Positions 7,489-64,000 of a stretch of 64,000 nucleotides of DNA are shown here, in pieces. Numbering within the stretch: the first letter of the stretch is position 1; each line of letters opens with the position of its first letter. The notes beneath the pieces are model-generated. The model did not search any database and was not told the DNA's origin. It saw only the letters and a list, made by a program, of their open reading frames with translations. The translations under genes were made by a program, and so were the position numbers. Source of the stretch: Trileptium ribeirensis. Its lineage: Eukaryota > Nematoda > Enoplea > Enoplida > Thoracostomopsidae. The DNA lies in the NCBI GenBank assembly GCA_030248225.1, contig JASANE010004949.1, forward strand, positions 1 to 64,000, given 5' to 3'.

Positions 7489-9427
7489 ATATCCATTCAT
7501 TGTTGACGTTTTGGTGGTCGACCCAGTAAATTGGGGTATAACGGTTTCAAGTAGAAAGCATTGTTTTGGCGGATGTAATATAACCTGAATAACGCCCAGC
7601 GGAACAGTAGGAGTGGTCTTAAAATAGTTATATTTTTATCTCAAAAATATATCTTACTTTTTTAGTGTTGGTGGTTTACATTAAAGTTAAGCCATATAAT
7701 CGCGTATCTAAAACTTTATATTCTTTGCTTTAAACGTATAGAACCAATGTTTTTTTCTTGTATTTATGAATCGAATTTGCGTTCGCGCACATTTGTCCAT
7801 TTCGCACGTTGTCCGCGTTCATCAATTGACATTCTGAAGCGGACAACAATGTTCACGGTCTATTTGTTTGTTATTGCATTAGAAAAAACGCCATTGGCAA
7901 TCGCGTTTTCACTTGTACGAACTGCTGCGCAAATCAATTAGTGATTTTGCCAAAAGAACAACCTTTGTGTACGCAACTAGACTCACGCGTTATTCGCACT
8001 GTACTCGAGTACGCTTCGCCTGATAGGTCATCCTACCTCGGGAAAGATATACACTACGTATATACTGGAGCAGCTACAACAACGTGCAGGCAAAATTGTT
8101 GCGGATTATTTGTTACGATAATCGCCTAAAATACTCCAAGTTCTTGGGCTCGATGAGCATCTTAGAGAGCGCCCTTATAGCCTTTTCTGTGCCCGAAGCA
8201 TAAACTGTGCCCACCTGCGATTCTTTTGTAACGGGCTGGCAAACGTATGGAATCGTCGTCATGGAAAAACTTCAAAAAATGGTAAGCGTCGTGAATAATC
8301 CTGGAATTTGGTATGACCTTAGTGCAAATATTTGCAAATCCTGTAAAATTGAGTCGAGTACATTTATTGGGTTCTGTGTCCAGAAATACTGTAGTGCACG
8401 TAGTCTTGAACTAGGAGAGGGAAACTCGGTTCTCCAAAAGGAACTGTGGTGACCACAGCTGAACAGGAAGACTAGAAAATGCAAAATACAATAAACTCTT
8501 GATTCGCAATTAATAATTTAAAAATGATATAACTAAATACCGTAACCTAGCAATTGACTGTAATATTAGCTTTGCGGTATGTTAAGTAAATGCCTATATA
8601 AATGCCTAAACGCTGTGTTTGCCATATGTATTGGCTCCGATAATGAAAAACTAGCTACTTGTAAGGTTCTGCAATAGTACAAGAATACACCACCCAAATT
8701 AGTTTATACAGCATTTTGTAATATATTTATTATAAAAACTTTCCGATTTTTTTGGTAATGGAGGAACTTCAAATTATTTACACTTGGAATCTAAAATTTT
8801 TGAAACATTTCTTATTATAAACGTTTAATTTTACTTATATGCCTATCATTCATGAGTTGAGGTGGCTGGAGGCGAAGTCATCGGTTACCATTTTCAGTGC
8901 ATATCAGGAATTTTACAAAATAATACCGATAACTCGTGCGACAAACAGGCACGTAAATCAAACCCATGAAATGGCGGAGCTTGTTTTGCCAATATTCAAC
9001 TAAGCTCCTGAATTTTTTTGTATTTAAGCAGGCATACTTTTCCCGGAAAATTATAGCGAAGCGCCATTTCGATTTTTGAAAAGAGCACTAAATTTTCTGC
9101 AAAATGATTAGCCAAATTTAGGCAATATTTTGTGCTAAATATTTGTTGAAGTTTGGGGATTTTATCTTATTAATTCGTATCAGTTTGACAAAATAGTATA
9201 GACGTTTTCGATATAAAGAAATTCAGAAGCTATGAAATCTGTCTAATCGCTAAGTTATATTATATATGTCCACTATTTTACCGTAATCAACCGTTTCTGT
9301 CTCGTTTGTTTCAGATTCTGCTATTTTGTTTCACAAACTTGTTGTCAAATATAATCGCTAAGTTATTGTATTATTTATTTTTTTCCACTATTTTGCCGTA
9401 ATCAACTGTTTATGTCTCGTGTTTTAG

Positions 9428-9562
9428 ATTCCGCCATCCGGCGCGTCGAGCTGTGACGCGCTACAGTCGTTGTCGGCAGTCGTTCAGCAGTCGCCAAATT
9501 CGGTGCTCCGTATTATAATTGATAATATGATTTATCCGGTGACGTTGGATATACTACATTCG
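9428..9562 (+). CDS. heph: PTB exon: end of linker 1 and first half of RRM2
   Basis: This is 45 codons, phase 0 at both ends, after a TTTTAG acceptor and before a GTAAAG donor. It encodes a Ser/Ala/Gln-rich linker ([17 protein letters not shown]) followed by RRM2 strand beta1 (RNP2, VLRIIIDNM) and helix alpha1 ([10 protein letters not shown]). The upstream boundary is the least certain: the frame is open to the TAG of the acceptor, and a phase-0 junction with an unseen RRM1 exon is inferred. The exon lies in the right arm of the 1-12.6 kb inverted repeat; the left arm carries a broken antisense copy at 2848-2981. The intact frame and correct order with downstream exons make this the working copy. 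Confidence 0.92.
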
Positions 9563-48500: not shown

Positions 48501-51500
48501 CCGCTGTATGGCGGAAGGGGGTCTGACCCCTCATGCCCCGCGACTGCCCTCTATTTGCCACTTGCCCCTCGAAAGTTTGACTCCCTAAATTATTGATGTT
48601 AACAACGAGAAATTTTTATTTCCTACCAACGTAAGGTGCAATTTCAGCAAATTTAGGAATTTTGTTGCCCATGCCAGTCATACTAAAACAGTAATACTGA
48701 CCCAAAAATGTATATAAAACCATACATTATACATAAATGTAACGTACATATAAAATATAAATTATATAGATAGTATACATATAATATTAAATACATATTT
48801 ACTCTCTCCCTCCGAACTCTGGGTCAGACTTAATCCCGAGAGCCCCCATTGCCAGAGGCCCACCGAAACAGCACGCACACCCACACAAATCCGTTTTTAC
48901 GCACATGTACGCAAACGCGTTTAAACGCACAAGCACTCAAGCGTGTTTAAACTCACGTAGTCACGCACATGCGTTTGAACGCATTTACGTGAGTACGTGC
49001 GTTTTTTGTACACGTAATCCTGTATGTGACTGTAACTTATCTTTAATTTTGTTTGGGACCGTCGTAATATCTCTCGATGTCGCGACTGATTTTTAATTCG
49101 ACATCTTTATTGTCAAGACCCGCCATAATAGTTGCTACTGGATAAAAATTTTCTAGCAAATTAAGTCGCCATGTTTTATTAATCGCCACATGTATGTATA
49201 ATGTTCATTAGTGAGACGATATAGTTCGTTCTTGTTTAATTACGCAATTCTTTTCATTCGTTAACATATTACAATTTAACGTCGTTGATTTATTGAAGGA
49301 TGCTGGTTTAACCAAAGACTACAGTCAGTCAACGTTGCATCGCTTTAAAAAACCAGGCAGCAAAAACTACATGAACATATATCCTCCGGCGTCGACACTG
49401 CATTTGTCGAATATTCCGTTAGTTTGATTTTTGTTATTACACTGATTTCATTGTTGAAACGATAGCAGTTTCCTTTGAGAAGACCGTGACGAAACCAAAT
49501 TATTTCTGCGTCTGCAAAGATATTTTTACAGTTGCGTTTTTGTAGATCGGAAGTGTGGTGATATTGTCTTTTAGAAGAACGCGAAACAATTACGGTCAAA
49601 ATTCCTTTTTCACAAAATTTGAGGTTACGGTATTATAAACATATTTGCACTATAGCTTCACTCGCAAGGTCGTATTAAATATCCGACTCAAAAGAAAGTT
49701 TTTACGGGTAGCTACGGCTTTGCTGTATAACACTTATTTTGTCAGAGCATCCGTTCTAGCGTGGTAAATAAGAGTTGTAAAAATTATAAAAAAATTACTA
49801 AATCCAAATCGATTTACAAGGATTAAATATCGCATATTAAATGCCAAATGGATAAGGAAAGATAAGGCAAATGGAATGTAGAAGCCTACTAACTGCTGTA
49901 AATATACAAAATTTGTATATATTTAGATATTTATTATTCGTTCCGTGTTGTTAGACAAACACATTGTTTGTACTACCTTGAACAACTGTAACGTTATGTT
50001 CTATCAGCTAATGCTACAATTTTGTGGTTGTATCTCGTGGCTTGCAACATCATTATTAATAATTGAACTTTTATTGTTCTTGTGCTAACACAGTAAAAGC
50101 AGCGTTCTTGTCACTCAACGCTTTACTAACAGCTTCAATTTCAGCCAGAACACTGACTCAATCCTTGAAAATCCGTTTTATTGTGCTTGGTGAGTCAGTC
50201 ATACGTCTCTTTTCCAAAGTTGCTCCCAGTTTTGCTTGTACTTTCACGGCCAGTTTTCTCGTTCACCTTGAAGTATTAGACTTTTCAAAGCAATTCACTT
50301 TAAAAAATATTTCATTTTCCTTTACTCCACTTAGTGTCACAGTTATAAGGGAGAGGTGCTTCCCCTTTCATTTTTTGCTGGCAAACGCGAAAAAATCAAT
50401 TTATGGGGTTATAACAAAACGATTGTGTTCTCTCACTTTTTGCAGCCCCCCAACCTTTGAATAGCTTGCAACGCCCTAGACAGTGATGCAAACTGTTAGC
50501 GAAAAATTCATAGAATAGCAATTGAACCGCTGTTACCAATAATTTTACGCGAACTGTTCGCAATATGTTTTTTCGTAAACGGTTCGCGAAAAATTTGCTT
50601 TATTTGTGTCTGCAACAACAATTATATTTTCTTTACTTATTTTTAAATTATATGTAACTGTTTCAGGCCTAATGTCACGCAAGAGTTTCTTGTTAATGCG
50701 TTTGCCGAACACGGATTCGAACCTAAAGGCTTCAAATTTTTTCCGTAAGTTGCGGTTTATTTTTTCTTACTGTTAATTCAGCTAACGCTATGTGTACATA
50801 TATAATAGTTTTTATCCGATATTACGATCTGCCAAACTTTTGTTCGGCAAAAAGAATTGTGCGCATGCTGGAAAAATGGTGGCACAAGTAACGTCATGTA
50901 TAATGATAGATTATGTAGGACTAGTTTGATAATTTTTGCAGTGCAGCGATCCTGAATAGTATTGGCGCAATGAAATTATTCGAAATATTCATCACAATTT
51001 TAGGCATTGATCTTCAGAAATTTATTTGTTAGTATACTCAAGAGTTGATGGTATTTTACTGCAGAGCATGATTCCTTTTGGTGAGGGTAGTTCGCGCTGT
51101 TTTTCAACCTGTACTCCTTCATTTCATGGGGGCACTCAATTATGTTCCGTGGTATCACATGCGGTACTAAGGTACCCCTCTACCCATGAAATATAGGTGG
51201 ACATTATTGTCCACCCATGAAATTCAGGAGCGACGTTTTTGTTTGAAGGGAAAATGGCATATGGAGTGTCCGCTCCCATGAAATGCAAGTGGACAGAAGG
51301 AAACACACGGTGTCACACCTCAATATTCAGCAAATGTTTAATCTTAACAATGTCATACTTTTCAGAAAAATGTTATTCATAGCTCATTTTCGGATGGATG
51401 GATTTCGACAGATTCTTTGTTCGATAGCAAAAGTGATTACGATGTGCCGTTTAGTTGACTAAATTTTCAAGGTCAAAATGGCAAAAAACAGGTTTTTAAT

Positions 51501-52750
51501 GTGGCCATACGAGTTCCAGTGTTTCGCAACCCATATCTCGCGGTACACGCTTCTCGTCGAGAATGGAAACAGAGTCAGCTTATAGAGATGTACAATTGTG
51601 ATGACTATGACTTCCCGAGGACGCTGTGGGCCTTAATTATGGTTCTGGGCCTGAATATGGTCCGTTGATACTTTGCAAGAAATATAGATTTTTCAAATTT
51701 CGCCGTGTTACTGCTTTTTTACCTTACAGTGAGTGCCTATCAGGTTATCAAGCACGCTGGATACGATGGCTTTGCTATCTAGAGTCTAACGTGACTATAT
51801 TCTTTTTTTCTTGGGTTTCAAGGATTTTTTGGTCGATGAACCCGATTTCCGCACCCGAAGTGCGTTTTCATTTTGTTTGATGATGCTTTCCGTGGAGGGC
51901 AGCAACAGTGGTCTAAATATTGTTGGTATTTCTGAAGGCCGACTATAATGATTTGGTTATAATATAGAGTTCAGCGTGCATAACAGTTTCATAACTTTTC
52001 ATGATTTTTCAACTGTGGTTTAGGGTCAATGAACGCTATTTACAGAATTATAGTATGTCTTCAGCTGTTTGGTTACGTTTTGCGTAAGGTGATCAAAAAT
52101 TGCCTATATAGGTGTTCTGTTTGGTTAAATAGGGATGGTTTGGCTATATAAGGTCCAGCACAAGTATCTTATGACGTTATAGTTAGTCTTCTTTGTTGTT
52201 TGGTTACATGTTGCGTACCGGTCATTAAGAATTGTCAATATAGGTTTTCCGATAGGCTGACTACGATGGTTTAGTTATTCTAGAGACGAGCACAATATTA
52301 CATACTTGATGCATTGTCAGTGGTTTTTGATGGGTTTAGGGCCGACCAGGTTTTAGGATTTTAAATGGGTTCAGGGCCAAGAGGTTTTAAGTTGGTATAT
52401 ACATCAACATAGCCTGTTATTATAGGTGATTAAACAAATGTTAATTTAAAAATGAAACCGCGCTCGCACTATTTCAGCCTCGCTTGCGAGGTACCAGTGT
52501 AAATGCATGTACATAAAGTTGTAAAGTGTTAGGCCAATAAGGCAAGTATTTAATGTCAGAGGGATTTTAATATTGTTATCAGTAAAAATTTTGGTGGGAT
52601 AATTATTTTCAATATTGATGTCCGAATTAATGTAGAACATCTTTATACTACAATCGTCAATAATATAGATTTTTCATTATTTTAGGAAAGATTTATAAAA
52701 TGGTACTGCTGCAACACGATCCAGTTAATGATGCTATTAGCGCTCTGATT
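9428..52750 (+). CDS. heph: Polypyrimidine tract-binding protein (PTBP/hephaestus) orthologue, partial, 13 exons
   Basis: PTB proteins are RNA-binding proteins with four RRMs that bind CU-rich tracts and repress or modulate exon inclusion in the nucleus, with cytoplasmic roles in mRNA stability and translation. Exons read here: 9428-9562, 13860-13911, 14767-14825, 21276-21444, 32762-32803, 35547-35792, 37800-38155, 42983-43016, 46715-46807, 47990-48087, 49299-49417, 50667-50744 and 52686-52750. Phases agree at every junction, and the total is 1545 nt (515 codons) if one inserted base in the last exon is discounted. Family hallmarks in order: [87 protein letters not shown]1 and the final RRM4 strand are not in the window. 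Identification rests on remembered family sequence, not a search; orthology to PTB rather than another RRM family is near certain. Confidence 0.95.
10021..11494 (+). mobile_element. Family-A dispersed repeat with GAAACGGAGCGAG-type inverted ends
   Basis: It starts GAAACGGAGCGAGTGGAG and ends with CCACGCTTGCTACGTTTC, an imperfect inverted pair of about 22 bp. The interior has degenerate tandem units of about 150-190 bp (TAGTTATCTAGAG, GTATTGCGTxCAGG). Related copies, some partial, lie at 37271-37600, 39701-40150, about 51365-52474, 57788-58900 and 63310-64000. No transposase frame is visible, so it is probably non-autonomous. Superfamily unknown. Confidence 0.6.
12610..13384. other. Intron, nothing recognised
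   Basis: This is unique sequence between inverted repeat 1 and a dispersed repeat copy. An 82-codon minus-strand frame (12831-13079) matches no family I know. Confidence 0.5.
13385..13843 (+). mobile_element. Partial family-A copy abutting a PTB exon
   Basis: It matches 10568-11017 closely: GAAGCCGAGCGAAGCG, the GTCCGTCCGTTCGTT run, CAAGAACCACTGAAC and the end CCACTACCGACTAGT. The copy stops at 13843, 16 bp before the 13860 exon. It therefore supplies the sequence in which the exon's branch point must lie, unless that lies further upstream. Confidence 0.75.
13860..13911 (+). CDS. heph: PTB exon: RRM2 helix 1 end to strand beta2/beta3 turn
   Basis: The 52-nt micro-exon has a TTTCAG acceptor and a GTAAGT donor. 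It encodes [17 protein letters not shown] plus one base of the next codon, matching the PTB RRM2 segment in which the IFS(K/R)FG turn leads into strand beta2. It enters in phase 0 and leaves in phase 1; the leftover A joins AT of the next exon to give Asn. A dispersed repeat copy ends only 16 bp upstream, so the branch-point region of this exon probably lies in transposon-derived sequence. Confidence 0.93.
14767..14825 (+). CDS. heph: PTB exon: RRM2 RNP1 strand and helix alpha2
   Basis: The 59-nt exon has a TTTCAG acceptor and a GTAAGT donor, enters in phase 1 and leaves in phase 0. It encodes (N)[19 protein letters not shown]. This is the RNP1-type strand beta3 of RRM2 (FQxLxQF in the family) and the start of helix alpha2, where vertebrate PTB has an Ala/Gln/His-rich helix. 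It joins the next exon as AAKS-SLDGQ, matching the family AKLSLDGQ. Confidence 0.94.
15066..16158 (-). mobile_element. Non-autonomous hAT element (CCGGTTCC family), copy 1
   Basis: It has ends CAGGGAATAACC and GGTTACTCCCTG, flanked by 8-bp target duplications ATAGTAAC and GTAGTAAC (one mismatch). The subterminal sequence is rich in GGAACCGG/CCGGTTCC. CAGGG...CCCTG ends with 8-bp duplications are the hAT signature. It is in reverse orientation to the copies at 30-32 kb. A 65-codon frame at 15185-15382 has a relative in the 30141 copy, but no transposase domain. Confidence 0.88.
16293..18848 (+). mobile_element. Element with six ~350-bp internal tandem monomers
   Basis: A left segment starting TCAGAACGTAGTG, an array of about six monomers (marked by AAATGCCGATGC at about 16630, 16982, 17329, 17688, 18037 and 18385) and a right segment ending ATTACTAGT/GTTACTAGT are all shared with a shorter copy at 41056-41952 that has about two monomers. 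Near the right end are an inverted pair (CTATCGAGAG, CTCTCGATAG-like) and a hairpin GCGTAGGTGTACCTATGC. Open frames across the monomers (60-90 codons) repeat with the unit and are not genes. No target duplication or transposase was seen. Confidence 0.8.
18849..21275. other. Intron with small local duplications
   Basis: It contains a 61-bp tandem pair at 20577-20637 and 20638-20698, and a ~135-bp pair at about 20830 and 20975 (GATATGTCxATGCTC ... GACGTATxCTAC). Otherwise nothing recognised. Confidence 0.6.
21276..21444 (+). CDS. heph: PTB exon: end of RRM2 and start of linker 2
   Basis: It begins after CTTCTAG with [20 protein letters not shown] and continues through [14 protein letters not shown], the strongly conserved PTB RRM2 C-terminal extension, into a variable tail ([15 protein letters not shown]). 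Two donors preserve phase 1: GTTGGT after 21438, and GTGAGG after 21444, which is closer to consensus and chosen here. They differ by two codons, so a short alternative splice is possible. It lies after a 6.4 kb intron and before an 11.3 kb intron. Confidence 0.92.
21445..25480. other. Large PTB intron, first part: no gene seen
   Basis: It is AT-rich intronic sequence. Around 22210-22335 GTCGAGCGAG and GGAGTCGAGCGAGCGG flank a short stretch resembling the CGAGCGAGC-containing MITEs at 43 and 47 kb, but complete ends were not found. Frames at 24.0-24.9 kb are short and unrecognised. Confidence 0.5.
25495..26180. repeat. Recurring GTAGCCCCCCGACC motif
   Basis: Variants of GTAGCCCCCCGACC occur at about 25500, 25706, 25840, 26119, 26140 and 26163, separated by unrelated AT-rich sequence. 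On the minus strand these are isolated runs of six to nine G. They look like remnants of one element's ends inserted repeatedly or of a degraded long-period tandem. Confidence 0.6.
26690..28770 (+). mobile_element. Degenerate LINE (non-LTR retrotransposon) with RT and RNase H
   Basis: Order as in I/R1/Jockey-group ORF2: FRPIC at 26705; a [24 protein letters not shown] block near 26800; RT motif [10 protein letters not shown] at 26889-26915; [16 protein letters not shown] near 27051; RT motif C AYSDDLVF at 27182; [12 protein letters not shown] thumb region near 27392; RNase H YTDDS at 27958; IFQAEDYAI near 28063; [13 protein letters not shown] then FIGPE near 28300; and a final HFLTTCRGF near 28670. 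Several stops and frameshifts separate these, so it is dead. The RNase H after RT points to the I/R1 side of LINEs. A stretch within 26-26.7 kb may be its 5' remainder. Confidence 0.88.
28867..29251. mobile_element. 385-bp MITE with 16-bp perfect TIR and TAGTC duplications
   Basis: The ends CTGGCCTGTCCACAGC and GCTGTGGACAGGCCAG are exact reverse complements, flanked on both sides by TAGTC (28862-28866, 29252-29256). Poly-C/poly-G tracts and CCCATGTTC/GAACATGGG lie just inside both ends in inverted order. It is inserted beside the dead LINE. A 5-bp duplication does not fit hAT (8) or mariner (TA); the superfamily is not identified. Confidence 0.85.
29252..30140. repeat. Repetitive intron segment with a ~165-bp repeated block
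   Basis: CGACAACCGTTCGTGCTAT ... TTCACGTTTTCTAAA occurs at about 29598 and 29759, with TCTTAAAATTAAGCAAA-type repeats around it. It begins with GGAGGCAAGACGAGCCACCG, GAAGGTGGCGAGTCGCAGCC, a GC-rich stretch unlike its surroundings, perhaps a transposon end. Confidence 0.5.
30141..31324 (+). mobile_element. Non-autonomous hAT element (CCGGTTCC family), copy 2
   Basis: It starts CAGGGAGTAACCGGAATTCC and ends GGTTCCGGTTATTCCCTG. The 8-bp target duplications ATACATAT at 30133-30140 and 31325-31332 are exact. The interior aligns with the copies at 15066, 31337 and 33919. It contains no transposase; the 112-codon minus frame at 30848-31186 is shared in part with the 15 kb copy. Confidence 0.95.
31337..32226 (+). 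mobile_element. Non-autonomous hAT element, copy 3 with internal deletion
   Basis: It starts 12 bp after the previous copy ends. Exact 8-bp duplications ATATCTAT lie at 31329-31336 and 32227-32234; the left one overlaps the right duplication of copy 2. Relative to copy 2 about 295 bp (equivalent to 30855-31150) is missing, joined at TATTA/TTAATG. Two insertions in the same short AT site are inferred. Confidence 0.95.
32227..32761. other. Intron, nothing recognised
   Basis: This is intron sequence leading to the acceptor of the 32762 micro-exon, with no repeat family identified. Confidence 0.5.
32762..32803 (+). CDS. heph: PTB micro-exon in linker 2
   Basis: The 42-nt exon follows TTTATAG and precedes GTGAGT. 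It encodes (X)[13 protein letters not shown], in phase 1 at both ends. No single motif proves it, but its incoming phase fits the 21444 (or 21438) donor and its outgoing base T joins CG of the 35547 exon to give Ser. Linker 2 of PTB in other animals also has Pro/Tyr/Phe-rich stretches before the Ala-rich part. Because 42 is a multiple of three it could be a cassette exon that can be skipped without changing frame. Confidence 0.7.
32804..33918. other. Intron, nothing recognised
   Basis: This is AT-rich sequence with no recognisable gene or complete element. Confidence 0.5.
33919..34430 (+). mobile_element. Truncated hAT element, copy 4
   Basis: It starts CAGGGAGCAATCGGAATT and follows copy 2 for about 510 bp up to a CATCTGCAACG landmark, after which the sequence is unrelated. 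The right end and target duplication are lost. It is more diverged than the 30-32 kb copies, so probably older. Confidence 0.8.
34431..35546. other. Intron with a short hairpin and TTAGG-like repeats
   Basis: CCTGAGGGTAATTTCCTCAGG at about 34850 is a 7-bp stem with a 7-base loop. AACCTAACCTAACC at about 34938 is three TTAGG-type units on the minus strand. No gene seen. Confidence 0.5.
35547..35792 (+). CDS. heph: PTB exon: Gln/His/Ala-rich linker 2
   Basis: The 246-nt exon lies between a T-rich TTTTTTTCAG acceptor and a GTAAGT donor, phase 1 at both ends. It encodes a low-complexity segment with Q runs, an AHAHH cluster and LQQ repeats, built of CAG/CAA codons. Vertebrate PTB linker 2 is shorter and Ala-rich; fly hephaestus also has expanded low-complexity linkers. 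The mixed CAA/CAG codons suggest an old, relatively stable glutamine tract. It probably is disordered and could mediate condensation or protein contacts (inference). Confidence 0.9.
35793..36960. other. Intron, nothing recognised
   Basis: This is AT-rich intron sequence with no recognised repeat or coding signal. Confidence 0.5.
36961..37225. mobile_element. Possible mariner-like MITE
   Basis: The left part TACGGTCGCCAGTAAGTG and the right part CATTTCTGGCGAGTAGTG are imperfect inverted matches and resemble the TACAGTACTCGCC ends at 43 and 47 kb. GAACGAAC-type short repeats fill the middle. The boundaries are approximate. Confidence 0.4.
37271..37600 (+). mobile_element. Partial family-A repeat
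   Basis: It starts GAAACGAAGCGAGGGAACCG and keeps CATAACTCATTTTCG, GTTGTGACCTTTAGTTGAACG and TTAAAATGGCAAAA in the same order as the copy at 10021. The right end is missing. It lies just upstream of the duplicated PTB splice acceptor. Confidence 0.6.
37631..37769 (+). pseudogene. Tandem 139-bp duplicate of the 3' splice site and 5' part of the next PTB exon
   Basis: The 139 bp repeat almost base for base at 37770-37908, which contains the real acceptor and first ~109 nt of the 37800 exon. The duplicate has its own TTATTTAAG acceptor (pseudo-exon from 37661) and the same following sequence with scattered substitutions. Read in the incoming phase it meets a TAA at 37666-37668, because a C-to-T change turned CAA into TAA. 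It is therefore a broken exon copy with an intact-looking splice acceptor. Confidence 0.88.
37800..38155 (+). CDS. heph: PTB exon: Ala-rich linker 2 and RRM3 strand beta1
   Basis: The 356-nt exon enters in phase 1 (A joined to AT gives Asn) and ends in phase 0 at a GTAAGT donor. It encodes [18 protein letters not shown], then Val/Ala/Gly/Thr-rich sequence with an [10 protein letters not shown] run, then [10 protein letters not shown], the RNP2 strand of RRM3. An alanine stretch immediately before the RRM3 RNP2 is typical of PTB. The acceptor (ATTTAAG) has a weak pyrimidine tract and competes with a duplicated acceptor 139 bp upstream. Confidence 0.95.
38156..38631. other. Intron, nothing recognised
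   Basis: This is unique AT-rich sequence up to the hAT insertion at 38632. Confidence 0.5.
38632..39496. mobile_element. hAT-type element packed with CCGGGTCCGGGTATT repeats
   Basis: The ends TAGAGTTGCA and TGCAACTCTA are exact complements and fit the hAT consensus TAGxGxTGCA. They are flanked by exact 8-bp duplications CTTGAGAC (38624-38631 and 39497-39504). Two arrays of CCGGGTCCGGGTATT units lie near the two ends in the same, not inverted, orientation; the right one has a 35-bp unit repeated four to five times. Frames of 65-180 codons through it (Pro/Gly or Arg/Val repeats on either strand) are by-products of the array. Confidence 0.93.
39701..40150 (-). mobile_element. Partial family-A repeat, reverse orientation
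   Basis: It begins GAAACGGAGCGAACGTGG, the complement of the family's right end, and then runs through CCTCGTCGACCCTAAACCC and CATCAAGTATTTGTGC, TCTAGATAATCAA units like those at 57.85-58.3 kb. About two degenerate internal units are present. Confidence 0.65.
40151..41055. other. Intron, nothing recognised
   Basis: This is AT-rich sequence with no recognised family or coding signal. Confidence 0.5.
41056..41952 (+). mobile_element. Short copy of the 350-bp-monomer element
   Basis: It shares its left segment (TTTTCAGAACGTAGTG, GGGCTCATTCGAACC), about two monomers, and its right segment (TCGAGAGCTGATTGG, GGCGTAGGTGTACCTATGC, ATTACTAGT) with the 2.6 kb copy at 16293. Monomer number, not the ends, accounts for the size difference. 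Confidence 0.8.
41953..42982. other. Intron, nothing recognised
   Basis: This is unique sequence ending in the T-rich acceptor of the 42983 micro-exon. T/C-rich runs at about 42850-42980 could be PTB-type binding sites. Confidence 0.45.
42983..43016 (+). CDS. heph: PTB micro-exon: RRM3 helix alpha1
   Basis: Only 34 nt long, this exon encodes [11 protein letters not shown] plus the first base of Gly, matching family [12 protein letters not shown]. The acceptor is ATTTTCAG and the donor GTATGT; phase 0 in, phase 1 out. Joined to the previous exon it reads [17 protein letters not shown]. The usual Pro is Cys here. A mariner-like MITE begins 23 bp after the donor. Exons this short often depend on splicing enhancers or flanking CU-rich sites. 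Confidence 0.94.
43040..43218. mobile_element. 179-bp mariner-like MITE
   Basis: It starts TACTGTACTCCCGAGAAATGA and ends TCATTTTTGGCGAGTACTGTA, an imperfect ~20-bp inverted pair with TA at both ends, as in Tc1/mariner elements. GGCTCGCTCGAGG lies inside. It lies 23 bp after the donor of the 34-nt PTB exon. Confidence 0.7.
43219..44700. other. Intron, no gene recognised
   Basis: A 113-codon plus frame (43257-43598) and a 61-codon frame (43677-43862) match nothing I know. CCGGGTCAC occurs several times at about 43713 and 44640-44700. Confidence 0.4.
44710..44835 (+). mobile_element. Fragment of a reverse transcriptase
   Basis: [12 protein letters not shown] followed by [17 protein letters not shown] is read at about 44727-44815, with the catalytic YADD at 44767-44778. 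The arrangement (a short strand, then YADDIxLxxRT) fits non-LTR retrotransposons of a different type from the 26.7 kb LINE. Only about 40 codons remain. Confidence 0.65.
44985..45245 (+). repeat. Degenerate ~23-bp minisatellite
   Basis: Units like CGAGCAGTGAGCG, CGGGCAATGAGCGAATATC, CGAGCAGTGAATAACAT and CGAACAGCGAGTGAATATC follow each other at roughly 20-28 bp spacing, about ten times, with heavy divergence. It lies just downstream of the RT fragment. Confidence 0.65.
45246..46714. other. Intron, nothing recognised
   Basis: GGCCAGAAATGAAAGCAAAT at about 45370 resembles the inside of the MITE end at 47464, but no partner end was found. Otherwise it is AT-rich intron. Confidence 0.45.
46715..46807 (+). 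CDS. heph: PTB exon: RRM3 beta2-beta3 (RNP1)
   Basis: The 93-nt exon runs from TTTTTAG to GTTTGT, phase 1 at both ends. It encodes (G)[15 protein letters not shown] followed by [15 protein letters not shown], the best-conserved block of RRM3 in animal PTBs and the source of its RNP1 strand. Only the end (FSEPIQ versus family MAEPxQ) departs from the remembered consensus. This exon fixes the identification of the gene. Confidence 0.97.
46808..47463. other. Intron, nothing recognised
   Basis: This is AT-rich sequence between two PTB exons, with no repeat family identified. Confidence 0.5.
47464..47724. mobile_element. 261-bp mariner-like MITE
   Basis: It starts TACAGTTGCGGACAAAAATG and ends CATTTCAGGCGCGTACTGTA, imperfect inverted ends of the TACAGT type usual in Tc1/mariner elements. 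CGCTCGCTC and GAGCGAGC-like tracts lie near the ends, as in the 43 kb MITE. Confidence 0.7.
47990..48087 (+). CDS. heph: PTB exon: end of RRM3
   Basis: The 98-nt exon follows TTATTTCAG, enters in phase 1 and ends in phase 0. It encodes (A)[17 protein letters not shown] followed by [15 protein letters not shown]. This covers helix alpha2, strand beta4 and the SKHxxVQLPKEGQ extension of PTB RRM3. The donor after CCG is GTACTG, a weak match to consensus; reading through it the frame stays open for about 20 codons to a stop at 48151, giving a possible truncated isoform lacking RRM4. Confidence 0.93.
48895..49012. repeat. Clustered ACGC/GCGT-rich palindromic micro-repeats
   Basis: Short units such as ACGCACATG, ACGCGTTTAAACGCA and TCACGTAG alternate in both orientations over about 120 bp, making overlapping small hairpins. 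The same block recurs in copy C at about 60840-60955. It is intronic. No protein is implied by the frame through it. Confidence 0.6.
49299..49417 (+). CDS. heph: PTB exon (copy A): RRM3-RRM4 linker and RRM4 strand beta1
   Basis: The 119-nt exon enters in phase 0 and leaves in phase 2. It encodes [20 protein letters not shown] then [19 protein letters not shown]. The [10 protein letters not shown] block is a PTB signature that packs RRM3 against RRM4, and TLHLSNIP is the RRM4 RNP2 strand. The acceptor (TTTATTGAAG) is purine-rich just before the AG and weak. This copy is intact; the direct copy at 61243 is frameshifted. Confidence 0.96.
50667..50744 (+). CDS. heph: PTB exon (copy A): RRM4 helix alpha1 and strand beta2
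   Basis: The 78-nt exon lies between GTTTCAG and GTAAGT, in phase 2 at both ends. It encodes (P)[19 protein letters not shown] then KGFKFFP, matching RRM4 of PTB up to the KGFKFF(Q/P)KDRKM junction. An identical open copy lies at 62614-62691 (C); an antisense copy at 59520-59599 (B) has two insertions. Confidence 0.94.
52686..52750 (+). pseudogene. heph: PTB exon (copy A): RRM4 RNP1 strand, frameshifted
   Basis: It lies between ATTTTAG and GTAAGT. It should read (P)[21 protein letters not shown]4 strand beta3 and helix alpha2, but one extra T after AAAGAT makes AAA GAT TTA TAA, an early stop. Without that base the exon would be 64 nt, keeping phase. The antisense copy B at 57514-57577 lacks the insertion and is closer to family consensus ([21 protein letters not shown]). 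Either copy A is decaying, with copy C (just beyond the window) supplying the exon, or the extra base is a consensus error. Confidence 0.85.
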
Positions 52751-53013
52751 GTAAGTAACTATTATTATTCATAAATATAGTCTTCTAATAAAATCAGTCC
52801 CGGTCGCATGATTCTCCGCGGTCTTGTAGCTATCCGGTGAAATCACCATGATCGTTAACATTTAAACTACTCGTTGAGATTTTTATATGAGTGTGAATCC
52901 ATGTACAGATAGTTGTTTCAAGTTTCGTTACATTTTTATTACCCCAGTTAAAGCTTAACGACCTTTGTGTTGTTGAACTATCGCACAATCTCTATTTGCC
53001 AGATTCTGGTGCT

Positions 53014-53029
53014 ACATGCGATCGCATGT
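53014..53029. repeat. Perfect 16-bp palindrome
   Basis: ACATGCGATCGCATGT is its own complement and is conserved in the inverted copy at 57243-57258 although surrounding bases differ. It lies in the intron after the last visible PTB exon. Confidence 0.7.
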
Positions 53030-53339
53030 GGGATAACTTAAAATTTTACCTAATTACACGCTGTATCAGAAAACATGTTAAATTGTTTTATATTTTTCCT
53101 GTTTATCATTTTTAAACAGGTATTTTTAATATTTTTCGGAAATCAACGTGAAAATTGCAATATATACTGATGCCTAATCTGGGAAAACGAAAATTCACGG
53201 AATATCCTTGGGAATCAAGGTGGGTTAGAGATTTTCCTGTTGGTCTCAGTATTTGAAAGTACATTTTGTAGGATGGGAAATCTATGCTGACCTGAAGGGT
53301 AAAGAACATTATTTTCATAAATTCGTCTTATAATCTCGC

Positions 53340-53480
53340 CACATGTGATTTCCCGCCGAATCACAACTCACTGTGCTGGGAAAATAAAATATTTTTAAAT
53401 TTATAGTAGTTTTCTGTTTGCTCGGCTGCTCGCTTACTCGTAAAGCTACAGTTAACTTGTGGAGAGCATTATCTTATCGT
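53340..53480. mobile_element. Decayed mariner-like MITE, better kept in copy B
   Basis: The copy-B version (about 56815-56955) ends CACATGTGGCGAGTACTGTA and has GAGTGAGCGAGCAGCGAG inside, like the 43 and 47 kb MITEs. In copy A the terminal GAGTACTGTA is not intact. The insertion therefore predates the A/B duplication. Confidence 0.5.
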
Positions 53481-54604
53481 CAAACTCGGCAGCAATAAGA
53501 GTCGCATCAATTCCCTTTTGCTATCTACGGCATATCAAATTTTTACCGTTCTCTATGTTATTAAGAATTAACGATAAAATTAATTAACGCTAGTATAGAG
53601 GAGCCATCACAGTATTTTATTACACCGCAATTTTGGTTTAGTTTATGCTCAAAGTAGTCTCTCGTCTAAGCGTAGTGGTAGGCAGAAGCTATTGAGGTGT
53701 AGACGACAAACGTGATTTGACATGCGACCGAGCGAGCGGGCCGACATCAGCATTGTTTTGTAGTTCTTTTAATTGCATGCGCATGGGTAGCGCATATTAT
53801 GTAGCTGTGTGATATCAGAGCGTTGCACAGTAACGTAACATCGTAATTGCAGCAATGGACTGACCAGTTTGGTCTAGTAACGAACGAACATAGATTGGTT
53901 CCGTTTTTGCGTACTTCCTGACCGTTTGTTTGAAATTTCAGATGATGTATAATTACAAGTTGGCAGAAAGTTTTTATAGCTTCGAGTGTTGTTCTCGAAG
54001 CACCATGGTATTTAGCGTACTTGTGTCGTCGCAGTGTTTGTTTTGTTCTAGGATTGTTTCCGTATAAAAAAATATTTCGTTTTAGCATGTTTCTCACTCT
54101 TCTCTGCTGTTTTTCTAAGCCTGGATAAGCCTTCCGGTGAGAATCGTGTAGAATAGATGTGTAATTATACAGTAGTACACAAACTACATAAGCCGTCAAG
54201 AATTAAATACCAAAAGCAATCAAACTGCTGCTTGTCGTGTGGACTTGTCGAAAGGTGTCGTTCAAGCGAATGGGTGGCACCCCTACATGTGTCACGCCTA
54301 ACTTTTACTGTATATTTTTTAGAATATTAGTTTGTTGCTGTAGATATGGTTTTAGTAAATTTTGATATATATTAGTGTCACAATGTTTGATTGTAAATAA
54401 CTATTATTGTAAAGTGTTGTTCTACAGCAAAAATGCCGTAAGAAATTCGAGTGGATTTGGAAAATAAATAATTATTAATTGATGATAAACGCTGTACACT
54501 ATGTGAATGATGCCAAATTATTAGTGTTTTATTGATGTTAACAAAAATATATTTATAGATTGTATAATTTATATTTTATTATTATTTTGTGATTCTTTAC
54601 GTTT

Positions 54605-55716
54605 GCAAGTTACGAGGATATATCATCGAATATTGCACTATAATATTTTTAATAGCAGTTTGTAAGTGTCGCACTGAGCGTGGCATATTGTCGGAAAGTA
54701 GTTGAGCTGAACCTCTTTACGCCAGAGCGGAAGTTCAGTCTAGCTAGATGTAGCGTAGCAAACATCGCGCCGAGCCAGAATCTGAAAATCAAACACTCTT
54801 ACTAATTCACTACTTTGGATTAAAAAGATGCCCGCTCTGCTGTGATGACATATACACTGAACCACCAGTGATCAAGTAACGTATGCAAGTAACTGTTACG
54901 AGCAAACACACACTAGCTATTTAATAGACAGACAGCGTATATTTATCGCTAAAAGCTAAAACGGTTCAGCTCAGACAGACATATAGCTCTATGCAGTTCT
55001 TGAAACACTGTACCATCACGCGACTTTGATTGGTGGAAATATATAGGCAGAATAATTCAACGGTCTCAGAGAAGCATTCGCGTAGTAATGTATTATGTAA
55101 AGCGCAATAAATTTTTTTATGAACTTCACCGCCTACAGACGATGTGAGCAGTGATGTGATGTAAAACATGATTACGCATTTGTGCAACAAATCTTAGATA
55201 TAATAGTTAACAAATTTACACAAAGTTAGATAATGTAAATCTTCAAAACAAATTACTGTAAGTAATAACGTAAATTTTACATACAGTCAAACGGCTTATC
55301 ACATTAACACCTATCAAACGGAATTCATACAGTAATTATTGCTTAATGGTCATTGAAACATAAAAAATGTGTTTTTGTCTTAATCAAAATGATGATCGTA
55401 TCAATAGGCGGTAAAGAGATCACAAAATAATTTGTTAACATAATGAATTTAATATTTTGCCACTTGCTATAACAGCGTTCACAGTAGGTCGAGCTCACAT
55501 TGCTTCCAATCAATTCTTTTACGATATGGTCGAATTCGGTGACTGCACTACACCGTGTGTGTGTACATTATGTATTTATTCATCCCACACTATCTGATTC
55601 GGATATAATAAAATTCGTATCGGATAAGATGCAAGGAGAACACTCTATACATACAATACGAGTGTAAATCGGAATGGACCCAAAATGTGAAAATGGCGAT
55701 ACATTTACAGACATCA
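54605..55716. other. Unique spacer between inverted copies A and B
   Basis: The 1.1 kb has no mirrored counterpart and no recognisable exon. The expected last PTB exon (a basic/His-rich turn then HLRVSFSKS-like strand beta4 and stop) is not seen here. The longest open frames (under 80 codons) match nothing I know. Confidence 0.75.
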
Positions 55717-57513
55717 AAACGTAAAGAATCACAAAATAATAATAAAATATAAATTATACAATCTATAAATATATTTTTGTTAACATCAAAAAAACACTAA
55801 TAATTTGGCATCACACATAGTGTACAGCGTTTATCATCAATTAATAATTATTTATTATTCCAAATCCACTCGAATATATTACGGCATTTTTGCTGTCAAT
55901 AACAACACTTCAATAATAGTTATTTACAATCAAACATTATGGCACTAATATATATCAAAATTTACTAAAACCATATCTACAGCAACAAACTAATATTCTA
56001 AAAAATATACAGTAAAAGTTAGGCGTAACACATGTAGGGGTGCCACCCATTCGCTTGAACGACACCTTTCGACAAGTCACACGACGAGCAGCAGTTAATC
56101 TCTGGGCATTTAGTTGTTGACGGCTTATGTAGTTTGTGTACTACTATAATTACACATCTATTACACGATTATCACCGGAAGGCTTATCCAGCTAGGACAG
56201 CAGAGAAGTGAGAAACATCTAAAACGAATCTTTTCTATTCGTAAACAATCCTGACGAAACAAACGCTGCGACGACACCAGTCGTCAAATACCACTCTTCG
56301 AGAACGACACTCGAAGATGAGAACTTTCTGCCAACTTGTAATTGTGCATCATTCTGAAATTTTAAACAAACGGTCAGGAAGTATGAAAAAAACGGGACCG
56401 AATCTATGTTCGTTCGTTACTATACCAAACTGAGTTCCGTCCATTCCTGCAATTACAATGTACGTTACTGTGCAACGCTGATAGCACAAGAGGCTATATA
56501 AGATGCGGCTACCCATGCGCATGCGATAAAAGAACTACAAAACAGTGCTGATGTCGGCCCGTCTCGCTCGGTCGCATGCAAATCACGTTTGTCATCTCCT
56601 CCTAATAGCTACTGCCTACGACTACGCTTAGACGAGGTTTCTTAAGCGAAATTAGACGAAATCGGGTGTAGATAGAATACTGCTGGCTTCTATAATAGCG
56701 TTAATTAATTTTATCGTTAACTGTTAATAATAAAGAAACGGTAAAAATTTGATATGCCGTAGATAGCAAAACGCAATATCGACTCTTATTGCTGCGATTC
56801 AACGATACGATAATGCTCTCCACGAGTTGACTGTAGCTTTACGAGTGAGCGAGCAGCGAGTAAACAGAAACTACTATAAATTTAAAAATATTTTATTTTC
56901 CCACGAGTAAGTTGTGATTCGAGCACCAGATCACATGTGGCGAGTACTGTAGACGAATTTTTGAAATAATGTTCTTTACCCTTCAGGTCAGCATAGATTT
57001 CCCATCCTACAAAATGTACTTTCAAATACTGGACCAACGAAAATCTTGACCCACCTTGATTCCCAAGGATATTTCATAAATTTTCGTTTTCCAGATTAGC
57101 ATCAGTATATATTGCAATTTTCACGTTGATTTCCAAAATATTAAAAATACCTGTTTAAAAATGAGAAACAGGGGAAAATATAAAACAATTTTAACATGTT
57201 TTCTGATACAGCGTGTAATTTAGTAAAATTTTAATTTATCCCACATGCGATCGCATGTAGCACCAGAATCTGGCCAATAGAGTATTGTGCGATAGTTCAA
57301 CGACACAAAATTCGTTAAGCTTCAACTGGTAGAAAAAATGTCACGAAACTTGGAACAACTATCGGTACATGGTTCACACTCATATAGAAATCTCAACGAG
57401 TAGTTTAAATGTTAACGATCATGGTGATTCACGATAGCTACAAGACCGCGGAAATCATCGACCGGGACTGATTTTATTAGAAGACTATATTATGAATAAT
57501 AATAGTTACTTAC

Positions 57514-57577
57514 AATCAGAGCGCTAATAGCATCATTAACTGAATCCAGTTGCAGCAGTGCCATTTTATGATCTTTC
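57514..57577 (-). pseudogene. Antisense copy of the RRM4 RNP1 exon, frame intact
   Basis: On the minus strand this reads CAG, then 64 nt encoding [21 protein letters not shown], then GTAAGT. It is in frame and agrees better with family consensus (KDRKMALLQL) than the sense copy at 52686. It lies on the wrong strand for the gene, so it cannot be spliced to the upstream exons as assembled. It is called a pseudogene for position only. Confidence 0.85.
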
Positions 57578-59519
57578 CTGAAATAATGAAAAATCTATAT
57601 TATTGACGATTGTAGTATAAAGATGTTCTACATTAATTCGGACATCAATATTGAAAAGAATTCTCCCACCAAAATTTTTACTGATAACAATATTTCAATC
57701 CCTCTGACATTAAATGCTTGCCTTATTGGCCTCACACTTGACAACTATATGTACATGCATTTACTATGGTACCTCTCAAGCGAGGCGGAAATAGTGCGAG
57801 CGCGGTTTCATTTTTAAATTAACATTAGTTTAATCACCGATACTAACAGGCTATGTTGATGTATATACCAACTTAAAACCTCTTGACCCTGAACCCATTT
57901 AAAATCCTAAAACCTGGTCGGCCCTAAACCCATCGAAAACCACTGACAATGCATCAAGTATGTAAATTTGTGCTCGTTCTTTAGAAAGTAATTAAACCAT
58001 CGTAGTCAGCCTATCGGAAAACCTATATTGACAATTCTTAATGACCGGTACGCAACATGTAACCAAACAACGAAGACTAACTATAACGTCATAAGATACT
58101 TGTGCTGGACCTTATATAGCCAAACCATCCTATTTAACCAAACAGAACACCTATATAGGCAATTTTTGATCACCTTACGCAAAACGTAACCAACCAGCTG
58201 AAGACATACTATAATTCTGTAAATAACGTTCATTGACCCTAAACCCATTGAAAAATCATGAAAAGTTATGAAACTGTTATGCACGCTGAACTCTATATTA
58301 TAACCAAATCATTATAGTCAGCCTTCAGAAATACCAACAATATTTAGACCACTGTTGCTGCCCTCCACGGAAAGCATCATCAAACAAATGAAAAAACGCA
58401 CTTCGGGTGCGGAAATCGGGTTCGTCGACCAAAAAATCCTTGAAACCCAAGAAAAAGAATATAGTCAAGTTAGACTCAAGATAGCAAAGCCATCGTATCT
58501 TGCGTGCTTGATAACCTGAAAGACACTCATTGTAAAGGTAAAAAAGCAGTAACACGGCGAAATTTGAAAAATCTATATTTCTGGCAAAGTATCACCGTAT
58601 GATCATTCAGGCCCAGAACCATAATTAAGGCCCACAGTGTCCTCGGGAAGTCATAGTCATCACAATTGTACATCTCTATGGGCTGACTCTGTTTTCCATT
58701 CTCGACGAGAAGCCTGTACCGCGAGATATGGGTTGCGAAACACTGGAACTCGTATGGCCACATTAAAAACCTGTTTTTTGGCATTTTGACCTTGAAAATT
58801 TAGTCAACTAAACGGCACATCGTAATCACTTTTGCTATCGAACAAAGAATCTGTCGAAATCCGTCCATCCGAAAATGAGCTATGAATGACATTTTACTGA
58901 AAAGTATGACATTGTTAAGATTAAACATTTGCTGAATATTGAGGTGTGACACGGTGTGTTTCCTTCTGTCCACTTGCATTTCATGGGAGCGGACACTCCA
59001 TATGCCATTTTCCCTTCAAACAAAAACGTCGCTCCTGAATTTCATGGGTGGACAATAATGTCCACCTATATTTCATGGGTAGAGGGGTACCTTAGTACCG
59101 CATGTGATACCACGGAACATAATTGAGTGCCCCCATGAAATGAAGGAGTTGAGGTTGAAAAACAGCGCGAACTACCCTCACCAAAAGGAATCATGCTCTG
59201 CAGTAAAATACCATCAACTCTTGAGTATACTAACAAATAAATTTCTGAAGATCAATGCCTAAAATTGTAGATGAATATTTTCAATAATTTCATTGCGCCA
59301 ATACTATTCAGGATCGCTGCACTGCAAAAATTATCAAACTAGTCCTACATAATCTATCATTTTACATGACGTTACTTGTGCCACCATTTTTCCAGCATGC
59401 GCACAATTCTTTTTTGCCGAACAAAAGTTTGGCAGATCGTAATATAGGATAAAAACTATTATATATGTACACATAGCGTTAGCTGAATTAACAGTAAGAA
59501 AAAATAAACCGCAACTTAC

Positions 59520-59599
59520 GGAAAAAATTTGAAGCCTTTAGGTTCGAATCCGTGTTCAGGCAAACGCATTAACAGAGAAACTCTTGCGTGACATTAGGC
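59520..59599 (-). pseudogene. Antisense copy of the RRM4 helix-1 exon, frameshifted
   Basis: It is the reverse complement of exon 50667-50744 but 80 nt long: one extra C in the EFLV codons and one extra base in FAEH shift the frame. The splice sites (CAG and GTAAG) are kept. Two single-base insertions in an otherwise near-identical copy look like either early decay or long-read consensus errors. Confidence 0.85.
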
Positions 59600-60004
59600 C
59601 TGAAACAGTTACATATAATTTAAAAAATAAGTAAAGAAAATATAATTGTTGTTGCAAGACAAATAAGCCAAATCTTTCGCGAACCGTTTTCAAAAAACAT
59701 ATTGCGAACAGTTCGCGTAAAATTATTGGTAACAGCGGTTCAATTGCTATTCTATGAATTTTTCGCTAACAGTTTGCATCACTGTCTAGGGCGTTGCAAG
59801 CTATTCAAAGGTTGGGGGGCTGCAAAAGTCAAGAGAGAACACAATCGTTTTGTTATAACCCCATCAATTAATTTTTTCGCGTTTGCCAGCAAAAATTGGA
59901 AGGGGAAGCACCTCTCCCTTATAACTGTGACGCTAAGTGGAGTAAAGGAAAATAAAATATTATTTAAAGTGAATTGCTTTGCAAAGTATAATACTTCAAG
60001 GTGA

Positions 60005-60262
60005 ACGAAAAAACTGGCCGTGAAAGTACAAGCAAAACTGGGAGCAACTTTGGAAAAGAGTAGTATGACTGACTCACCAAGCACAATAAAACGGATTTTC
60101 AAGGATTGAGTCAGTGTTCTGGCTGAAATTGAAGCTGTTAGTAAAGCGTTGAATGACAAGAACGCTGCTTTTACTGTGTTAGCACAAGACAATAAAAGTT
60201 CAATTATTAATAATGATGTTGCAAGCCACGAGATACAACCACAAAATTGTAGCATTAGCTGA
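60005..60262 (+). other. Unidentified coding-like frame interrupted by one TGA
   Basis: On the plus strand of copy B (antisense in A and C) a frame reads [19 protein letters not shown], then [13 protein letters not shown], one TGA at about 60107, then [20 protein letters not shown], ending TAGC-ATT-AGC-TGA at 60262. Composition (Lys, Ala, Glu, Ser) is more protein-like than other frames here, suggesting a decayed transposon ORF. I do not recognise the family. The 133-180 residue frames on its opposite strand are its shadows. Confidence 0.35.
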
Positions 60263-61242
60263 TAGAACATAACGTTACAGTTGTTCAAGGTAGTACAAAC
60301 AATGTGTTTGTCTAACAACACGGAACGAATAATAAATATCTAAATATATACAAATTTTGTATATTTACAGCAGTTAGTAGGCTTCTACATTCCATTTGCC
60401 TTATCTTTCCTTATCCATTTGGCATTTAATATGCGATATTTAATCCTTGTAAATCGATTTGGATTTAGTAATTTTTTTATAATTTTTACAACTCTTATTT
60501 GCCACTTGCCCCTCGAAAGTTTGACTCCCTAAATTATTGATGTTAACAATGAGAAATTTTTATTTCCTGACCAACGTAGGGTGCAATTTCAGCAAATTTA
60601 GGAATTTCGTTGCCCATGCCAGTCATACTAAAACAGTAATACTGACCCAAAAATGTATATAAAACCATACATTATACATAAATGTAACGTACATATAAAA
60701 TATAAATTATATAGATAGTATACATATAATATTAAATACATATTTACTCTCTCCCTCCCAACTCGGGTCAGACTTAATCCCGAGAGCCCCCATTGCCAGA
60801 GGCCCACCGAAACAGCACGCACACCCACACAAATCCGTTTTTACGCACATGTACGCAAACGCGTTTAAACGCACAAGCACTCAAGCGTGTTTAAACTCAC
60901 GTAGTCACGCACATGCGTTTGAACGCATTTACGTGAGTACGTGCGTTTGTACACGTAATCCTGTATGTGACTGGAACTTATCTTTAATTTTGTTTGGGAC
61001 CGTCGTAGTATCTTTCTCGATGTCGCGACTGATTTTTAATTCGACATCTTTATTGTCAAGACCCGCCATAATAGTTGCTACTGGGATAAAAATTTTCTAG
61101 CAAATTAAGTCGCCATGTTTTATTAATCGCCACATGTATGTATAATGTTCATTAGTGAGACGATATAGTTCGTTCTTGTTTAATTACGCAATTCTTTTCA
61201 TTCGTTAACATATTACAATTTAACGTCGTTGATTTATTGAAG

Positions 61243-61364
61243 GATGCCTGGTTTAACCAAAGACTACAGTCAGTCAACGTTGCATCGCTTTAAAAAACCA
61301 GGCAGCAAAAACTACATGAACATATATCCTCCGGCGTTGACACTGCATTTGTCGAATATTTTCC
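61243..61364 (+). pseudogene. Copy C of the RRM3-RRM4 linker exon, frameshifted
   Basis: It is 122 nt instead of 119: one extra C in the GATGCTGG start and two extra T near the end. Read in phase 0 it leaves the PTB frame after Asp and stops within about 17 codons. The total gain of three bases restores phase only at the very end. The splice sites match copy A. Confidence 0.88.
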
Positions 61365-62613
61365 GTTAGTTTGATTTTTGTTATTACACTGATTTCATTG
61401 TTGAAACGATAGCAGTTTCCTTTGAGAAGACCGTGACGAAACCAAATTATTTCTGCGTCTGCAAAGATATTTTTACAGTTGCGTTTTTGTAGATCGGAAG
61501 TGTGGTGATATTGTCTTTTAGAAGAACGCGAAACAATTACGGTCAAAATTCCTTTTTCACAAAATTTGAGGTTACGGTATTATAAACATATTTGCACTAT
61601 AGCTTCACTCGCAAGGTCGTATTAAATATCCGACTCAAAAGAAAGTTTTTACGGGTAGCTACGGCTTTGCTGTATAACACTTATTTTGTCAGAGCATCCG
61701 TTCTAGCGTGGTAAATAAGAGTTGTAAAAATTATAAAAAAATTACTAAATCCAAATCGATTTACAAGGATTAAATATCGCATATTAAATGCCAAATGGAT
61801 AAGGAAAGATAAGGCAAATGGAATGTAGAAGCCTACTAACTGCTGTAAATATACAAAATTTGTATATATTTAGATATTTATTATTCGTTCCGTGTTGTTA
61901 GACAAACACATTGTTTGTACTACCTTGAACAACTGTAACGTTATGTTCTATCAGCTAATGCTACAATTTTGTGGTTGTATCTCGTGGCTTGCAACATCAT
62001 TATTAATAATTGAACTTTTATTGTTCTTGTGCTAACACAGTAAAAGCAGCGTTCTTGTCACTCAACGCTTTACTAACAGCTTCAATTTCAGCCAGAACAC
62101 TGACTCAATCCTTGAAAATCCGTTTTATTGTGCTTGGTGAGTCAGTCATACTACTCTTTTCCAAAGTTGCTCCCAGTTTTGCTTGTACTTTCACGGCCAG
62201 TTTTTTCGTTCACCTTGAAGTATTATACTTTGCAAAGCAATTCACTTTAAATAATATTTTATTTTCCTTTACTCCACTTAGCGTCACAGTTATAAGGGAG
62301 AGGTGCTTCCCCTTCCAATTTTTGCTGGCAAACGCGAAAAAATTAATTGATGGGGTTATAACAAAACGATTGTGTTCTCTCACTTTTTGCAGCCCCCCAA
62401 CCTTTGAATAGCTTGCAACGCCCTAGACAGTGATGCAAACTGTTAGCGAAAAATTCATAGAATAGCAATTGAACCGCTGTTACCAATAATTTTACGCGAA
62501 CTGTTCGCAATATGTTTTTTCGTAAACGGTTCGCGAAAAATTTGCTTTATTTGTGTCTGCAACAACAATTATATTTTCTTTACTTATTTTTAAATTATAT
62601 GTAACTGTTTCAG

Positions 62614-62691
62614 GCCTAATGTCACGCAAGAGTTTCTTGTTAATGCGTTTGCCGAACACGGATTCGAACCTAAAGGCTTCAAATTTTTTCC
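62614..62691 (+). CDS. PTB exon (copy C): RRM4 helix alpha1, intact duplicate
   Basis: It is identical in frame to 50667-50744, with the same CAG acceptor and GTAAGT donor, encoding (P)[19 protein letters not shown] then KGFKFFP. It could be spliced in place of, or in addition to, the copy-A exon; using both would repeat 26 residues, keeping frame because each is 78 nt. Confidence 0.8.
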
Positions 62692-64000
62692 GTAAGTTGC
62701 GGTTTATTTTTTCTTACTGTTAATTCAGCTAACGCTATGTGTACATATATAATAGTTTTTATCCTATATTACGATCTGCCAAACTTTTGTTCGGCAAAAA
62801 AGAATTGTGCGCATGCTGGAAAAATGGTGGCACAAGTAACGTCATGTATAATGATAGATTATGTAGGACTAGTTTGATAATTTTTGCAGTGCAGCGATCC
62901 TGAATAGTATTGGCGCAATGAAATTATTCGAAATATTCATCACAATTTTAGGCATTGATCTTCAGAAATTTATTTGTTAGTATACTCAAGAGTTGATGGT
63001 ATTTTACTGCAGAGCATGATTCCTTTTGGTGAGGGTAGTTCGCGCTGTTTTTCAACCTGTACTCCTTCATTTCATGGGGGCACTCAATTATGTTCCGTGG
63101 TATCACATGCGGTACTAAGGTACCCCTCTACCCATGAAATATAGGTGGACATTATTGTCCACCCATGAAATTCAGGAGCGACGTTTTTGTTTGAAGGGAA
63201 AATGGCATATGGAGTGTCCGCTCCCATGAAATGCAAGTGGACAGAAGGAAACACACCGTGTCACACCTCAATATTCAGCAAATGTTTAATCTTAACAATG
63301 TCATACTTTTCAGTAAAATGTCATTCATAGCTCATTTTCGGATGGACGGATTTCGACAGATTCTTTGTTCGATAGCAAAAGTGATTACGATGTGCCGTTT
63401 AGTTGACTAAATTTTCAAGGTCAAAATGCCAAAAAACAGGTTTTTAATGTGGCCATACGAGTTCCAGTGTTTCGCAACCCATATCTCGCGGTACAGGCTT
63501 CTCGTCGAGAATGGAAACAGAGTCAGCCCATAGAGATGTACAATTGTGATGACTATGACTTCCCGAGGACGCTGTGGGCCTTAATTATGGTTCTGGGCCT
63601 GAATATGGTCCGTTGATACTTTGCCAGAAATATAGATTTTTCAAATTTCGCCGTGTTACTGCTTTTTTACCTTACAATGAGTGTCTTTCAGGTTATCAAG
63701 CACGCAAGATACGATGGCTTTGCTATCTAGAGTCTAACTTGACTATATTCTTTTTCTTGGGTTTCAAGGATTTTTTGGTCGACGAACCCGATTTCCGCAC
63801 CCGAAGTGCGTTTTCATTTGTTTGATGATGCTTTCCGTGGAGGGCAGCAACAGTGGTCTAAATATTGTTGGTATTTCTGAAGGCTGACTATAATGATTTG
63901 GTTATAATATAGAGTTCAGCGTGCATAACAGTTTCATAACTTTTCATGATTTTTCAATGGGTTTAGGGTCAATGAACGCTATTTACAGAATTATAGTATG

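Follow-up and report, generated by a model that had tools for sequence, protein, structure and literature searches.

A block carrying the RRM4 exons of a PTB gene is present in normal, inverted and again normal orientation, and comparison of its copies indicates that this arrangement is very probably an assembly artefact, in which a fold-back (palindromic) chimeric long read was built into the contig. The window, i.e. the whole stretch of DNA analysed here, corresponds to positions 1-64000 of C3274, a contig of 161,092 bases; the assembly to which it belongs has 20,229 contigs and totals 687 Mb. We refer to positions 48552-49760 as x, to 49761-54604 as b and to the spacer 54605-55716 as S. The features of the block are as follows:

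48552-54604, + strand: copy A, consisting of x and then b, with a noisy right half (about 52011-54604)
54602-54604, no strand: first fold-back junction, from A to S, the parent sites of which share CGTTTTG, with one T fewer in the contig
54605-55716, + strand: spacer S, with an inverted second copy outside the window, at contig positions 66471-67577
55717-60505, - strand: copy B, an inverted copy of b
60496-60505, no strand: second fold-back junction, from B to C, the parent sites of which share TATTTRCCAC with one mismatch
60496-64000, + strand: the part of copy C lying in the window, which goes on to 66470 and is followed by inverted S and the right flank; clean from 61708

The geometry can be read directly from the contig. 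Self-comparison of the window gave an inverted match of 49761-54604 with 60505-55717 (93.6% over 4,878 columns), a direct match of 48552-52057 with 60496-64000 (98.5%) and an inverted match of 58205-60505 with 64000-61708 (98.5%), all three far beyond chance. The inverted mirror of 49766-54604 at 55717-60500 and the direct repetition of 48552 onward at 60496, both proposed in a sequence-only reading of this DNA, were thus recovered. The mirrored pair itself stood, but its size had been underestimated, since beyond the window 54602-60505 mirrors 67580-61708 at 97.6%. Over its full length to 66470 copy C is 95.9% identical to 48552-54604. The same reading regarded the 1.1 kb spacer as unique, which does not hold: a search of the own genome located the inverted second copy of S, 95% alike, and a hairpin around a unique spacer is ruled out by it. 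Tandem repeats are present in the window and do not account for the block. Within b there is also a dispersed repeat of about 680 bases (51370-52057, 58205-58892 and 63318-64000), to which sequences on many other contigs are related at about 69-79% identity.

The order on the contig is left flank, x b, S b-inverted, x b S-inverted, right flank. Since S followed by inverted b is the reverse complement of b followed by inverted S, the whole arrangement is a single path (x, b, inverted S) run forward, backward and forward again. At the turns 1.1 kb (first) and 1.2 kb (second) are skipped. A run of this kind over one path with short skips is what a fold-back artefact should leave behind; the same order also has the form of a duplication, an inverted triplication and a duplication with two inverted junctions, as in DUP-TRP/INV-DUP rearrangements. 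The normal-inverted-normal layout and its template-switch geometry, which the sequence-only reading had recognized, are therefore borne out by self-comparison of both the window and the contig. Microhomology of 7 bp at the first turn and about 10 bp at the second is likewise directly visible, and belongs to the expected features of DUP-TRP/INV-DUP as well. Junction microhomology is usual for template switching.

The three copies differ markedly in quality. In a three-way alignment over b there were 184 private substitutions and 47 private indel events in A, 58 and 23 in B, and 2 and 2 in C; only four columns differed in all three copies. Natural divergence of three copies should have left similar counts in B and C, and the observed 58 and 2 private substitutions have a probability of 3e-15 under equal rates. 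These counts identify C from 61708 onward as clean sequence, which A and B resemble in degraded versions; noise is seen directly in A, S, B and the x part of C. The noisiest stretch of all is the right half of A. Its left part (49761-52010) differs from C by 30 substitutions and only 4 indels, with transitions still skewed 12 to 2, and may hold allelic differences. It should be noted that the number of substitutions in A depends on the alignment, 184 private ones in the three-way comparison against 129 in the pairwise comparison with C, due to different placement of gaps. Extra copies with uncorrected read errors beside one clean copy are what a fold-back artefact should leave, and the copies here conform to this, although B lacks a strand skew. 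We also considered C as a gene-conversion mosaic of A and B, and rejected it, as A-private and B-private sites interleave too finely (51566-52036).

The character of the differences was compared with that in other repeats. In ten control pairs, hand-picked from the self-comparison of the window and partially overlapping (c2 with c3, c4 with c7), 74 indel events were counted against 446 substitutions, a ratio of 0.17 with 0.26 in the highest single pair; under a second scoring the ratio rises to 0.32 and 0.38 in two small pairs. An eleventh pair was left out (16896-18582 and 16542-18237, a shifted tandem array), which aligned with itself under the first scoring and gave 0.22 under the second. 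The array in question, 16542-18613, is satellite-like, with a period of 347 and about 5.9 copies, and related stretches occur elsewhere on the contig (e.g. 41055-41691, 87770-88873 and 121476-122381). Indels per substitution amounted to 0.54 between A and C and 0.56 between the two copies of S. The ratios of 0.51 between B and C (27 indels to 53 substitutions) and 1.00 in x (7 to 7) need caution, because several of the five low-mismatch rows (mismatches/gap openings 0/3, 1/0, 1/3, 6/4 and 7/2) that were left out of a table of 12 further repeats, as were rows of repeat families already counted, are indel-heavy. Residual indel errors may thus be a general property of near-identical repeats in this assembly.

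A second inverted pair, of 8-4718 with 12609-7685 (82.7%), lies over the PTB RRM2 exon at the beginning of the contig and shows 0.89 indels per substitution. Its left arm, noisy and starting from contig base 8, contains a broken RRM2 exon, while in the right arm (7685-12609) this exon is intact; the pair is probably the same kind of fold-back error and counts in favour of the artefact.

Furthermore, the noisy differences in A and in the spacer are skewed between the strands. On the + strand of the contig, C-T exchanges stood against A-G exchanges as 56 to 16 between A and C, 10 to 2 in S and 128 to 36 in the second fold-back, whereas the control pairs were even (114 C-T, 112 A-G). Between B and C there was no strand skew (9 C-T, 10 A-G), and these even transitions count against one raw read spanning the whole block. 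Read on the other strand, A-G exchanges were 3.4 (second fold-back), 4.1 (right half of A) and 2.9 (S) times as frequent as the mean transversion type, and C-T exchanges 1.0, 1.3 and 0.9 times, respectively; in this tally by type the count for the second fold-back is 121 instead of the earlier 128, owing to gap placement. For nanopore reads Delahaye and Nicolas (PMC8486125) report A-G errors three to five times as frequent as transversions and C-T errors a bit more frequent. The skew had been counted before that report was seen, the ratios by type afterwards. The sequencing platform was probably nanopore.

The affected gene is on the + strand, with exons from RRM2 (9443) through the end of RRM4. 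When translated, 46615-46827 and 49215-49424 match PTBP1/PTBP2 of the PDB, and in a protein search with 7,986 scored candidates the top named matches, among the best 120 of 3,735 hits, were nematode PTB proteins, 57-61% identical along almost the entire query. A human PTBP1 probe detected no RRM1 exon in the window at E 0.5 or better. ARAGORN predicted no tRNA in the window and Rfam yielded nothing at gathering scores. Four RRM4-region exons are inside the block (the link exon, exon 2, exon 3 and the last exon), which together with the PTBP1/PTBP2 matches supports the earlier statement that the block covers the RRM4 exons of a PTB gene. Their copies in the window are:

49299-49417, + strand: PTB link exon before RRM4, copy A, intact, boundaries by eye
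50667-50744, + strand: RRM4 exon 2, copy A, intact, boundaries by eye
52673-52750, + strand: RRM4 exon 3, copy A, frame-broken and with substitutions
53945-54012, + strand: last PTB exon, copy A, broken
56287-56349, - strand: last PTB exon, copy B, body open, one extra base at its start relative to A and C
57514-57577, - strand: RRM4 exon 3, copy B, intact, boundaries by eye
61250-61360, + strand: link exon, copy C, broken by +1 and +2 insertions
62615-62689, + strand: RRM4 exon 2, copy C, intact

Exon 2 of copy B contains two 1-base insertions. Exon 3 and the last exon of copy C, both beyond the window, are intact; with exon 2, all three RRM4 exons of C after 61708 are undamaged. The exon damage falls in noisy copies. 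The straight path, x of A and then b of C, carries one intact exon set.

These observations would be accounted for by a chimeric molecule that was copied forward to the end of b, jumped 1.1 kb ahead onto the opposite strand, ran back through S and b, jumped 1.2 kb further back and went forward again. The path of clean sequence would then be left flank, x, b, inverted S and right flank, with one copy per PTB exon. Very low read depth would lie behind the noisy stretches (A, S, B and the x part of C), and the chimera may have been born in the library, e.g. by strand-displacement amplification (MDA). Among the mapped chimeras reported for MDA, 406 of 475 (85%) were inverted, 337 of these 406 joined sites less than 10 kb apart, and among the inverted ones below 10 kb, 93.5% carried at least two complementary bases where the parts met (PMC1855051). 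The two turns seen here, of 1.1 and 1.2 kb and with microhomology, agree with this description. Palindrome reads made up 47.8% and 43.6% in two amplified Arabidopsis samples and 11.8% in an amplified gorilla Y sample, against 0.5% in an unamplified control, and they are reported to spoil assembly (PMC6218980). As far as these two reports describe palindromic chimeric WGA reads, they resemble our case in that neighbouring sequence is inverted, a stretch is skipped, the junction bases are complementary over a short length and several turns can occur per molecule; they were, however, studied mainly as PacBio reads, while the present case is known from an assembled contig alone.

The order of the copies and the two microhomology junctions are equally those of a real inverted triplication of the DUP-TRP/INV-DUP type, arising when replication switches template. 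In that case the noise would be technical, a failure of nanopore base-calling in inverted duplicates. DUP-TRP/INV-DUP variants, as named in PMC7229812, share the normal-inverted-normal order and the two inverted junctions. For known real inverted duplicate junctions Spealman and others (PMC7229812) give 80-100% of the spanning reads as low in quality, so real inverted duplications degrade nanopore reads too. In their data, however, reads have normal quality up to the junction, and those entering from the left flank should therefore keep A clean to its end; instead its right half is the noisiest stretch of the three copies. The 2 private substitutions of C against the 58 of B would be improbable as well, except if nearly every read of A and B was of bad quality. 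Real variants hold three genomic copies, and the quality of the copies here argues otherwise; we consider this explanation unlikely. The stronger form of it has a true inverted triplication in the PTB gene, either fixed in this animal or polymorphic, from whose transcript kilobases of dsRNA over RRM4 exons could arise. It is quite unlikely and would require the noise of A and B to be nanopore failure on real inverted duplicates. The triplication within the gene with long dsRNA, as advanced by the sequence-only reading, is not supported: copy C is almost free of private changes, the differences of A and B are indel-rich and, in A and the spacer, strand-skewed, and the exon breaks are located in the noisy copies. 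An old real triplication, in which A and B decayed naturally to pseudo-exons and C is still functional, would agree with the broken exons of A and B and the intact exons 2, 3 and last in C. The block is mostly intron, however, thus C should have diverged equally, contrary to its 2 private substitutions against 58 in B; the other repeats of the window stay at 0.17 indels per substitution and without strand skew, and the link exon is intact in A yet broken in C. This makes natural decay extremely improbable.

A different assembly error was also weighed, namely that haplotypes were misjoined, A from one and C from the other, and an inverted piece was added by the assembler or scaffolder. The 30 substitutions with only 4 indels in 49761-52010 are such as alleles might show, but the transitions there are skewed too (12 to 2), misjoined haplotypes would yield direct copies and not inverted ones, and microhomology at both turns indicates a copying event in DNA; we regard it as very unlikely. 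Plain haplotype duplication was rejected, as it leaves the inverted copy without explanation. For this reason the caveat attached to the earlier triplication proposal, collapsed haplotypes or chimeric reads, survives in its latter half: chimeric reads are the better supported, and collapsed haplotypes alone give no inverted copy. Palindromes in animal assemblies, e.g. of Adineta vaga and Folsomia candida (PMC7953838), are likewise inverted blocks on one scaffold; those are whole-gene blocks found by collinearity, the present one lies within a single gene, and the authors of that list themselves warn of false positives from misassembly.

When the own genome was searched with S, with 2,293 bases of b and with 2,001 bases of the left flank, only the best candidates being scored, no straight path was found on another contig, and full-length copies were found on C3274 only. 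This would favour a real triplication; a fold-back artefact does not require the straight path elsewhere, because in a haploid assembly the wrong path may be the only one present. Together with this result, the missing skew in B, the few indels in the left part of A and the fact that real inverted duplications also degrade reads count against the artefact. In a small sample, made up of 53.5 kb from three other contigs and of nine further 10 kb pieces from other contigs, there was no like fold-back, which gives no indication that such errors are common in the assembly; the longest inverted pair of the sampled pieces had 856 columns and was in a piece too short for long arms.

If the fold-back chimeric read is indeed the origin of the block, gene models of this region with doubled or missing RRM4 exons are wrong, and so are claims of a palindrome or dsRNA. 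It should be emphasized that private changes per copy, indels per substitution relative to other repeats and the strand skew of transitions need only the assembled sequence; these three tests might flag fold-back errors in assemblies for which the reads are not at hand.

Elsewhere in the window, part of a PTB linker exon is duplicated in tandem, at 37628-37762 and 37767-37901. The two copies differ by 10 substitutions and no indels, both are open over about 30 codons, and they may represent a real exon duplication.
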